Positions 39,388 through 43,736 of a stretch of 64,000 nt of DNA are shown here, piece by piece. A program made the translations under genes and the position numbers. Source of the DNA: Phycisphaerae bacterium. GTDB lineage: Bacteria > Planctomycetota > Phycisphaerae > JAJVII01. The notes beneath the pieces were generated by a model. It saw only the letters and a list, made by a program, of their open reading frames with translations, was not told the DNA's origin and did no database searches. How positions within the stretch are numbered: the stretch's first letter is position 1; each line of letters begins with the position of its first letter. The stretch lies in NCBI GenBank assembly GCA_022072085.1, contig JAJVII010000014.1, positions 1 to 64,000 on the forward strand, given 5' to 3'.

Positions 39388-40047
39388 TCAGCGATCCAGC
39401 CCGGCCCAGACGGCGTCGATCTGGGCGTTGCTCGCGGACGAGCCGCCGGAGAAGCCCGAAGCGGTGAACAGGTCGAGCACGTCGGTTCGGTAGTCCACGC
39501 CGCCGTCGGAGTAGAGGACGTTGACGCCCGTCGCGTGCTGATACTGCACGTGGGTGGGGGAGACGATCAGGTCGGCGGCCATCGCCGTGCCGCCGCTGAC
39601 GGTGCTCAGGTGGGTCAGCCCGTTGCCGCTGACCGGCAGGGCCCGGCGGCTGTAGCAGGTCCGCCCGGGCTCGCCGGGCCAGGGGTTGGCCGGCGTGTCG
39701 TATTGGAAGCTGGCGCTGGTCATCGAGGGGCAGTAGAGCATTCCGGCGCCCGAGAAGTGCTCGTCGGCAGCCACCGCGGACCAGGCCTCGACCGCCGGCA
39801 GCGGCCCGACGAAGTAGTTGCGCGACCGCTGCGTCTGCGTGCTGCCGACCGGCGGCAGGAAGCCGTTGTGCCGGGCCGCGTAGTCGGCCAGGGCGATGCC
39901 GATGAAGTGCAGATTCCGCCCGCAGCCGGAGCGGCGGGCCGCCTCGCGGGCCTGGCCGGCTGTCGGCAGGATAATGCTCAACAGCACCGTGATGATAGCC
40001 ACGACGGTGAGCACTTCGATGAGTGTGAATCCCCGACGCGTGTGCAC
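39388..40047 (-). CDS. DUF1559-type prepilin with H-X9-DG motif
   Basis: A 219-residue protein from GTG 40047 (GAGGGG upstream): [23 protein letters not shown] is a prepilin signal. [13 protein letters not shown] near the C-terminus fits the H-X9-DG pattern of the large prepilin family typical of Planctomycetota and Verrucomicrobia. The frame remains open to about 40353, with a hydrophobic stretch ([19 protein letters not shown]), so a longer form is possible, but a 75-residue leader would be abnormal. It stands apart from the pil cluster. Confidence 0.75.
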
Positions 40048-40436
40048 TGCGCACCCCTCGACGCCCCAAGAACGCCTGCCGGCATCCAGTATCGCCCCAA
40101 GCGTGCGATCGATCAAGGGCGCGTCGGGAAGGAGGCGATCATTGCGGCCGCATCGCGGCGCGGGTCGCATCCAGGCCACCGCCAGCGCGGGCCCCAGCAA
40201 CAGCGCGAACTCGCCCAGCACGAGCAGGCGGTCCGGCGTCATCCGCGGGTCAACCAATCGGGGGGGCCGCGGTTTGCGCGAAGCATGATGCATGCACTCA
40301 CCCTTTCTCTCTGCGGGCCGCACGGCGAGGCTGGCCGGCGTGCATTCCGTCATGACATGGCGATGTCCGGGACAGGTCAGAGCGCCGTGGGATTACGGTC
40401 AGGTCTGAGCCATTGGCTGGCTTGAAGGCGGGGCGC

Positions 40437-40470
40437 AAAAAAAAGATGCCGCGCTGCTCTGCGGCATCGG
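40437..40470 (-). terminator. Strong intrinsic terminator
   Basis: On the minus strand, GATGCCGC-AGAGCAGC-GCGGCATC is followed by eight T residues. The nearest upstream minus-strand gene ends 430 bases away at 40903, so it more likely terminates the structured transcript proposed at 40445-40785. Confidence 0.85.
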
Positions 40471-40785
40471 TGTTAAGTGCCAGCCGACCCAAAGGGGGCC
40501 GACCAGCGGGATGGTCGCGAACGACCGACGGTCCGTTGCTCGGGTCCGCCGGAGGTTCGTCACTGATCGGCGGCGCGGTGTTCTGCCCGCCGGTTGGCCA
40601 GGTCGATGTTCTGACCCGCCTCTACTCGCAGGCCGATGCTCTGGCCCGCGTGCGGTCGGCCGACGTTCTGGCCGATCGCTTGAGCGGACGGTGTTCTGTC
40701 CGCCCGGTAGCCCGGCCCGCGAAATTCTGGGGGCCGGGGTTGTCTTCGCGCTTCCGTCAGTGCAGACACTCCTGACTGTCGGAAG
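40445..40785 (-). ncRNA. Candidate structured RNA: tandem hairpins with shared loop
   Basis: No credible gene. Read on the plus strand, hairpins recur every 27-31 bases with an 8-base loop close to GATGTTCT and stems that change in compensating fashion: GGTC/GACC (40601-40616), GGCC/GGCC (40631-40646), GGCC/GGCC extended by C-G and T-A (40656-40675), GCGGAC/GTCCGC (40684-40703). A partial copy is at 40573-40588, and a stronger CCCGGCCC/GGGCCGGG stem with loop end TTCT at 40711-40738. A CTTCCGTCAG hairpin is at 40751-40785, and a GGTCG-TTCG-CGACC hairpin (minus strand) at 40513-40526. The intrinsic terminator at 40470-40437 sets the strand. A TATGAT box at 40820-40815 could start it. Confidence 0.5.
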
Positions 40786-40902
40786 GTTGGTCTCTTCTCG
40801 TCCCCTCCGCCAATATCATAGGCCGCCCAAGTTAAGCGAGCGCTAACGAATGGTGAAGAGCATAAGAAAACCCCAGCAAAAGCGTCGGTCCCGCCCAGCG
40901 GC

Positions 40903-41697
40903 TCAAACCGCGATGGATTCCCCGCCGTCGAGCCATATCTCCGTGCCCGTGATGTGGTCCGCGGCGTCGCTGACCAGGAACAGCACCAGCCGGGCGACCT
41001 GCTCGCCGGACGCGGCGCCGGCGGGAACCTTCCCGTCGCCCAGCGGCATGCGGCCGCGCGGGAACTCGTGCGGGATGCGGATGCTATCGCGGTTGCGGTT
41101 CCAGGTGTTCCGGTCCAGGTCGGTATTCACGCTGCCCGGACAGACGGCGTTGACGCGGATGCGGCTGCGCCCAAGTTCGACCGCCAGCATCTTGGTCATG
41201 GCGACCTGGCCGGCTTTGGAGGCCGAGTAGGCGGTTGCCCCGGTCATGCCGAAACAGCGCGTGCCGTTGATCGACGAGCAGATGACGATCGCCCCGCCGC
41301 CGGCGGCCTTGAGATGCGGCACGGCGTACTTGATGGTGAGGAACGTGCCCTTGAGGTTGATGTCGAGGGTTTGGTCCCACTCGGCCTCGGCCAGTTCCTC
41401 GATGGGGCAGCGCATGCCGTTGACGCCTGCGTTGGCAAAGACAATGTCCAGCCGCCCGAACGCCTGCACGGTCCGGGCCACCGCCGCCTCGACGTCGGCT
41501 GACACGCTCACGTCGCCGGGGACGGCCAGGGCCTCGCCGCCGGCGGCGCGGATGGCGTCGGCGACGCGCTGGAGCGTGTCGGCCCGGCGGCCCATGACGG
41601 CGACCTTCGCCCCTTCGGCCGCCATCAGCCTGGCCGACGCCTCGCCGATGCCGCTGCCCCCGCCAGTGATCAGCGCGACGCGATTCTTCAATTGCAT
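40903..41697 (-). CDS. Short-chain dehydrogenase/reductase
   Basis: A 264-residue classical SDR. The NAD(P)-binding TGGGSGIGEASA is at residues 11-22, NAG at about 90, the catalytic Ser in CSSINGTR, and the Tyr-Lys pair in AYSASKAGQ. The C-terminus ITGTEIWLDGGESIAV is the usual SDR end. ATG 41697 has GGAGC upstream. The substrate is unknown. Confidence 0.92.
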   Translation of the reverse strand: MQLKNRVALITGGGSGIGEASARLMAAEGAKVAVMGRRADTLQRVADAIRAAGGEALAVPGDVSVSADVEAAVARTVQAFGRLDIVFANAGVNGMRCPIEELAEAEWDQTLDINLKGTFLTIKYAVPHLKAAGGGAIVICSSINGTRCFGMTGATAYSASKAGQVAMTKMLAVELGRSRIRVNAVCPGSVNTDLDRNTWNRNRDSIRIPHEFPRGRMPLGDGKVPAGAASGEQVARLVLFLVSDAADHITGTEIWLDGGESIAV

Positions 41698-42665: not shown

Positions 42666-43736
42666 TTGCCTGTGCAGCCGCCGACCGACCAGTTCGATCC
42701 GCTCGACCAGCGCCTGCTCAACGAACTCCAGGCGGGAGTGCCGCTGACGGCGGACCCCTTCGCCGTGCTGGCCGATCGGCTGGGCGGCGACGCCGACGAC
42801 CTGCTGGCCCGCGTGCGGCGGATGAAGGAGCGGAAGGTCGTCCGGCAGATATCGGGCATCTTCGACACCCGGGCGCTGGGCTACGTCGGCTCGCTGGTCG
42901 CGGCGAAATACGAGCCCAGCCGTCTGGAAGCGGCGGCCGAGGTCGTCAGCGCCCACCCCGGCGTCTCGCACAACTACGAGCGCAACCACCCCTTCAACCT
43001 CTGGTACACCCTGGCCGTGCCGCCCGACAGCCGCCTGGGCCTGGAGCGGACCGTGGACCTCCTGCACGCCCAGAGCGCCGCCCAGGCCACACGGCTGCTG
43101 CCGACGCTGCGGCTGTTCAAGATCGGCGTGAAGTTCGACATGACCGGCAGCCGGCAGGTCGGCGAGCAGGCCGACGACGACACGCCCGCGTACAGCGAAG
43201 CCGACCAGGCGGCTGCGGCACAGCACCCCGTCACCGATCGCGACAAGGCGATGATCCGCGCCCTCCAGCGCGACCTGCCGCTGACTCGCGAGCCGTTCGC
43301 GGAACTGGCCCGCGGCGAAGGCGTGGCGGCGGATGAACTGCTGGCGGCGGCGGCGCGGTTCCTGGATCGCCGGCAGATGCGGCGGTTCGCCGCGGTGATC
43401 CGCCACCGCCAGGCCGGCTTCGGCGCCAACGCGATGGGAGTCTGGGCCGTGCCCGAGGGGCGCATCGACGAGGTCGGCCGACAACTGGCCGCCTTCAAGG
43501 CGGTCAGCCACTGCTACCTGAGGCCGAGCTACCCCGACTGGCCCTACAACATCTTCACGATGGTGCACGCCCGCTCGAAGGAGGAGTGCGAGGCCGAACT
43601 GGCGGCGATGGCCGACGCGACCGGCATCACCCAGCGCGGCGCGCTCTACTCGACGCGCGAGTTCAAGAAGGTCCGCGTGAAGTATTTCGTGGGCGACACC
43701 GAGGCGTGGGAGGCGACGCACGGCAATGTCGAATGA
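42666..43736 (+). CDS. Siroheme decarboxylase-like, fused two-unit (AhbA-AhbB/NirDL type)
   Basis: About 356 residues built from two Lrp/AsnC-like units, each a helix-turn-helix followed by a ferredoxin-like domain. Unit 1 contains RQISGIFDTRALGYV and VSHNYERNHPFNLWYTL; unit 2 contains RRFAAVIRHRQAGFGAN and VSHCYLRPSYPDWPYNIFTM. These match siroheme decarboxylase subunits, which make didecarboxysiroheme. Fusion of the two partners in one chain is the oddity. The start is uncertain (TTG 42666 or GTG 42672). The closing NVE and the stop lie in the GTCGAATG intergenic repeat. Confidence 0.75.
   Translation: MPVQPPTDQFDPLDQRLLNELQAGVPLTADPFAVLADRLGGDADDLLARVRRMKERKVVRQISGIFDTRALGYVGSLVAAKYEPSRLEAAAEVVSAHPGVSHNYERNHPFNLWYTLAVPPDSRLGLERTVDLLHAQSAAQATRLLPTLRLFKIGVKFDMTGSRQVGEQADDDTPAYSEADQAAAAQHPVTDRDKAMIRALQRDLPLTREPFAELARGEGVAADELLAAAARFLDRRQMRRFAAVIRHRQAGFGANAMGVWAVPEGRIDEVGRQLAAFKAVSHCYLRPSYPDWPYNIFTMVHARSKEECEAELAAMADATGITQRGALYSTREFKKVRVKYFVGDTEAWEATHGNVE

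Follow-up and report, generated by a model that had tools for sequence, protein, structure and literature searches.

To our knowledge, few bacterial RNAs work through a single hairpin that is displayed repeatedly, and we know of little on RNA regulation in the host lineage considered here. The best-known multi-hairpin RNAs serve CsrA/RsmA or carry anti-SD loops. Specifically, CsrB-type decoys present GGA to CsrA, and GGA in hairpin loops is a requirement for membership of the family (PMC7652899). The alphaproteobacterial anti-SD sRNAs, such as SmelA075/SmelA099 and RS0680a, consist of two to four hairpins with the loop CCUCCUCCC on divergent stems, and they are present in several copies per genome (PMC3927594). 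Tandem hairpins are also found in ANTAR-responsive elements, the dual hairpins of which have hexaloops with A1 and G4 (PMC3369931). Finally, the GNRNA pentaloop adopts a GNRA-tetraloop-like fold from which one base is extruded, and lambda N is among the proteins that recognize it (PMC12027372). Here, we analyze a locus in which one loop is repeated on stems that differ from unit to unit.

A hairpin array between two genes

The array and its terminator occupied the gap between a gene for an SDR-family oxidoreductase (41697-40906) and a gene for a DUF1559 prepilin-type protein, both on the minus strand of the 64-kb window, that is, the whole stretch of DNA that was analyzed. The preliminary description had noted no credible gene in this gap, and none of the overlapping ORFs tested matched a Pfam family. 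The features, in the direction of the minus strand, were:

40906-41697, minus strand: gene for an SDR-family oxidoreductase, FabG-like (PF00106, 8e-56; NF004203, 1e-107)
40815-40820, minus strand: TATGAT, possible -10 box (read directly; promoter scan negative)
40437-40810, minus strand: proposed RNA, a hairpin array with an intrinsic terminator at its end (fold z = -5.5; terminator scan)
40751-40785, minus strand: separate 5' hairpin with 11-bp arms and an unrelated loop containing CAGGAG (MFE fold)
40714-40735, minus strand: u0 hairpin, loop AGAATTTC at 40721-40728, closed by C-G and followed by one C.C mismatch and a GC-rich stem
40683-40704, minus strand: u1 hairpin GCGGAC-AGAACACC-GTCCGC, loop at 40690-40697
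40655-40676, minus strand: u2 hairpin TCGGCC-AGAACGTC-GGCCGA, loop at 40662-40669
40628-40649, minus strand: u3 hairpin CGCGGGCC-AGAGCATC-GGCCTGCG, loop at 40635-40642
40598-40619, minus strand: u4 hairpin CGGGTC-AGAACATC-GACCTG, loop at 40605-40612
40570-40591, minus strand: u5 hairpin GGCGGGC-AGAACACC-GCGCCGCC, stem with a one-base bulge, loop at 40577-40584
40528-40549, minus strand: u6 hairpin CGGACC-CGAGCAAC-GGACCG, divergent, with an A.A mismatch, loop at 40535-40542
40445-40468, minus strand: u9, the terminator hairpin GATGCCGC-AGAGCAGC-GCGGCATC, loop at 40453-40460
40437-40444, minus strand: T8 tract of the intrinsic terminator (read directly; terminator scan)
39388-40353, minus strand: gene for a prepilin-type DUF1559 protein, 3' of the terminator (PF07596, PF07963, TIGR02532)

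The true start of the prepilin-type gene may be a GTG near 40047 rather than 40353. Judging by this DUF1559/prepilin gene, the host probably belongs to the Planctomycetota. Directly 3' of it was a gene for a GH13 protein (39338-37641, minus strand) that resembles sucrose phosphorylase (TIGR03852, 183 bits, below the cut-off of 334). Elsewhere in the window, a convergent gene pair (42666-43736, plus strand, and 45083-43803, minus strand) encoded proteins in each of which AhbA-like and AhbB-like siroheme decarboxylase halves were fused. The fusion at 42666-43736 was clear, with NF040708 and NF040707 above cut-off, while that at 45083-43803 was far more divergent and below cut-off.

Eight hairpins with an 8-nt loop were present on the minus strand at 40437-40810, with the loop consensus AGARCANC. 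As RNA, from u0 to u6 and then the terminator, the loops read AGAAUUUC, AGAACACC, AGAACGUC, AGAGCAUC, AGAACAUC, AGAACACC, CGAGCAAC, and AGAGCAGC. By position, the eight loops had A (7/8), G (8/8), A (8/8), a purine (8/8), C (7/8), A (6/8), any base, and C (8/8), and the loop was closed by a C-G pair in all eight units. Loop starts were 31, 28, 27, 30, 28, 42, and 82 bases apart; these spacings are not frame-keeping and, together with the lack of a protein family match, therefore rule out a repetitive protein. About six such hairpins had been described initially, and while the shared loop stands, the number is eight once the terminator hairpin (u9) and u6 are included. The latter is a member as well, with a mismatch in its stem. 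The divergent units are u0 and u6, which may be chance or decaying members; u6, with a closing-pair probability of 0.25, also faces competition from another fold. The separate hairpin that had been reported at 40751-40785 exists, but its loop differs from the array motif. In the gap between u6 and the terminator (40470-40525, minus strand), a UUCG-capped hairpin (GGUCG-UUCG-CGACC) and a GC hairpin of ~12 bp (CUGGUCGGCCC/GGGUCGGCUGG) were found, both without the loop motif; these are possibly spacers or decayed units.

Departure from chance and stem covariation

The repeated hairpin array is real. Using a count that required a stem of at least 4 bp, an 8-nt loop, and loops alike within two mismatches, six hairpins shared a loop in the real interval, while no more than four did so in any of 5000 dinucleotide shuffles. 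The minus-strand fold of 40430-40830 had an energy of -195.5 kcal/mol, where shuffled sequences averaged -165.0 (z = -5.5; 0/100 shuffles as good), in line with the structured minus-strand RNA that had been proposed, and the plus-strand fold gave z = -3.5. A search over loop lengths of 4-11 turned up nothing else in the window that compares with this array. Where the loop motif occurred outside the array, a contiguous stem of at least 4 bp flanked it in 27 of 271 cases (10%) and one of at least 6 bp in 8 of 271 (3%), the 271 occurrences being drawn from loci of the same genome, its class, and its phylum, some of which had been picked with the covariance model itself, so that this background is, if anything, raised. 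Stems of at least 6 bp were present in five of the eight units (u1, u2, u3, u4, and u9).

When the eight 22-mers were aligned on the minus strand, standard pairs filled 87.5% of cells. Reshuffling the partners between units lowered this to 59.6% (0/500 shuffles as high as 87.5%), and sliding the partners gave 32-44%, although the slid control is somewhat flattering to the observed value in that units were picked partly for hairpin formation. Stem pairs changed on both sides in six of seven cases, the seventh being the invariant C-G, and 17 cells had a change on both sides; this compensation, which upholds the covarying stems of the preliminary description, is among paralogous units of one array and not among species. 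On the plus strand, pairing fell to 82.1% of cells because G-U pairs of the minus-strand RNA become C.A. These G-U pairs and the orientation of the terminator suggest that it is the minus strand that functions.

Terminator, possible promoter, and predicted transcript

As had been proposed, the array runs on the minus strand into an intrinsic terminator, which was recovered by the terminator scan (chance alone is expected to give ~0.9 such sites over this length of DNA). It comprised the u9 hairpin followed by T8, and the loop of this hairpin belongs to the shared motif, a point missed before. At the opposite end, the TATGAT box named previously is present, but it had no recognizable -35 and the promoter scan found nothing, such that the box suggests a promoter only weakly.

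The proposed array RNA, ~370 bases in length, may be an independent sRNA or the 3' end (3' UTR) of the SDR mRNA, the latter being possible because the terminator scan found no other terminator between the SDR and prepilin genes. For a transcript from ~40808 to 40437, the loops were predicted to be mostly unpaired (0.81-0.99; u6, 0.72), and with a start near 40808, the stems of u1-u4 and u9 were predicted to form at about 0.9-1.0. When the transcript instead began at the SDR stop codon, u4 was predicted to misfold (0.10), which would be a mild hint in favor of a discrete RNA.

Searches for relatives and known families

No Rfam family matched the array, and in the window only a tRNA attained the gathering score, which agrees with the initial impression that the array fits no known RNA class. 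The AGARCANC loop likewise matched none of the motifs tested. DNA similarity and covariance-model searches found no second array in the same genome, where the sole other match to the array DNA at E <= 0.001 was a 55-base stretch that reads as coding. With a single-unit model, all eight units outscored every other hit in the window, which is a consistency check only, as the units were the training set; the two best outside hits of this model in the genome, and its best in the window, were coding-like stretches and were rejected.

Across 60 relatives, whole-array DNA similarity returned just short matches (20-60 bases) with chance-like scores, and among plasmids and phages there was no DNA match to the array. 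A two-hairpin covariance model was applied under stricter filters to 298 and 397 genomes of the class, in samples that overlap, and to 392 genomes of the phylum, and the homologous arrays in relatives that the preliminary description had looked to were found in none of these samples. The best outside hit of this model (locus L209, G275:C1 near 857450, 36.8 bits), from a class relative, was rejected as a 12-bp tandem simple repeat, GATGGTCTGGCC. Of the remaining hits, none of those retrieved as loci forms an array. A three-loop pattern run on genome and viral contigs gave many matches, and among the matches listed, none had three distinct stems within 300 bases; those inspected were repetitive coding sequences or repeats with near-identical copies.

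The pattern scans brought up REP-like intergenic repeats, GGGACGAGGGGACAGAGCACCGTCCCA, in the Lachnospiraceae MAG RGIG3774 (L088, L097, and L115), the hairpin of which, GGGAC-AGAGCACC-GTCCC, shares its loop with the array. These are probably unrelated to the array in the window because their copies are near-identical. An Anaerolinea contig (L037, reverse strand, 2825-2940) contained about four tandem 28-bp repeats, GGCTCGGTCGGAGACCGGCCAGAGCGTC, in nearly identical copies. In the one same-family genome (87% complete, 720 contigs), the prepilin orthologue was 48% identical over the part present; it was cut by a contig end, and the syntenic interval was absent from the assembly. Multi-hairpin RNAs with free stems are hard for covariance models to detect (PMC3927594), and the absence of the array elsewhere is for this reason provisional. 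As sampled in class and phylum genomes, we read the array as lineage-restricted.

Interpretation and alternatives

The design, with a constant loop, changeable but paired stems, many copies, and a terminator that bears the loop, is most likely, by analogy, that of an RNA presenting one site repeatedly. We give roughly even odds (probability about 0.5) to the array being a structured, multivalent, noncoding minus-strand RNA that would most likely sequester a protein reading AGARCANC. In this reading, which presumes that the array is transcribed, the RNA, whether an sRNA of ~370 nt or the end of the SDR mRNA, would carry one recognition element six to eight times, namely a GC-rich stem with the C-G-closed loop AGARCANC at its tip, and the last copy would be the terminator's own hairpin. 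The loop would be under selection for binding, and the stems only for their role as scaffold. With many sites per molecule, an RNA-binding protein could be sequestered (scaffolding seems less likely), following the logic of CsrB with another motif. A possible shape for recognition is suggested by GARCA, which fits GNRNA, the lambda boxB pentaloop, in six of the eight loops, u0 and u2 being the exceptions; at A3 and C5, conservation exceeds what the GNRNA fold by itself would demand. The earlier interpretation is partly supported: an RNA on the minus strand with repeated loops that are predicted to be accessible, stems with compensating changes, and a terminator is upheld, and the discrete transcript of ~380 bases and its titration of a protein or another RNA are putative. 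We also propose, more tentatively, that the locus represents a class of eight-site protein-sequestering or scaffold RNA in this lineage, in which AGARCANC is read by an RNA-binding protein not known to be decoy-regulated and the terminator hairpin doubles as a site. If true, the different, tightly conserved loop and the compensated stems would imply another RNA-binding regulator, for which the array RNA would be a ready-made bait.

Several alternatives were weighed against a protein-sequestering RNA. The AGARCANC loops might be seeds of an antisense sRNA that pair with GNUGYUCU in several mRNAs, a reading that draws on the sRNAs of Rhizobiales, which have the same architecture in that three to four hairpins carry a single loop motif on stems that vary (PMC3927594), and on the purine at position 4, which would pair with U either way. 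However, the array loop is not anti-SD, and a seed that spans no more than 8 nt and varies freely at one of them is short. Because the positions under strict conservation (the C-G closing pair, G, A, purine, C) resemble a structured loop, we prefer a protein partner to antisense pairing and regard multiple antisense seeds as unlikely.

Distinctly unlikely, in our view, is a cis element, in the SDR 3' UTR or the prepilin leader, at which a loop-bound protein would control stability or terminator read-through in the manner of ANTAR- or boxB-like attenuation. All three genes are on the minus strand, the SDR and prepilin genes are without a second detected terminator between them, and the terminator hairpin carries the shared loop. 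Yet the fold predictions gave no evident alternative antiterminator, eight sites exceed the number in known attenuators, and further prepilin genes of the same kind are encoded in the genome, whereas the array occurs once. An ANTAR protein search of the genome had no hit, although control genomes likewise gave none.

At the level of DNA, the units could form an array of palindromic repeats, whether REP/RAYT-type or not, that acts as ssDNA hairpins or protein-binding dyads, and the hairpin of the RGIG3774 repeats does match. We consider this highly improbable, as the stems vary between units instead of being near-identical, the genome has a single array at one locus in place of the dispersed, near-identical copies of REP/RAYT repeats, and the G-U-tolerant pairing and terminator orientation favor RNA. 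Least probable of all is an array without function, the product of chance and of local tandem duplication within intergenic DNA that is GC-rich, for while homologues were not found in the sampled class and phylum genomes and GC-rich DNA readily forms stems (the 10% background above), duplication explains the shared loops but not six of seven pairs that changed on both sides and still pair, and pairing would erode under neutral drift.

Comparison with known systems

A type III toxin-antitoxin RNA, which would consist of near-identical tandem repeats ahead of a toxin gene, was rejected, given that the stems differ between units and that the next gene encodes a prepilin-type protein. The array resembles ANTAR dual hairpins in having small hairpins in tandem, conserved at certain loop positions, ahead of a terminator, but it has eight hairpins with 8-nt loops, lacks the conserved A1/G4 hexaloop, and had no visible mutually exclusive terminator fold, and was not assigned to these elements. 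In contrast to lambda boxB, a pentaloop in the array would be closed by A.N7, with C8 left over, instead of by a Watson-Crick pair, and there are many copies without an N protein or phage context. The multi-hairpin anti-SD sRNAs are alike in that several hairpins share a loop motif while their stems vary; membership was rejected as no array loop equals the anti-SD sequence, and the array differs further in its eight hairpins and single locus. For the CsrB/RsmZ family, membership was likewise rejected, although the genome itself encodes one CsrA (PF02599 at G000:C47, 91.8 bits): GGA was present in 0/8 array loops, the motif being AGARCANC in an 8-nt loop, and there was neither a match to an Rfam covariance model nor sequence homology. 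What the array has in common with the decoy sRNAs CsrB/CsrC and RsmY/RsmZ is its architecture, namely many shared-loop hairpins on variable stems, an intrinsic terminator, and multivalent presentation.
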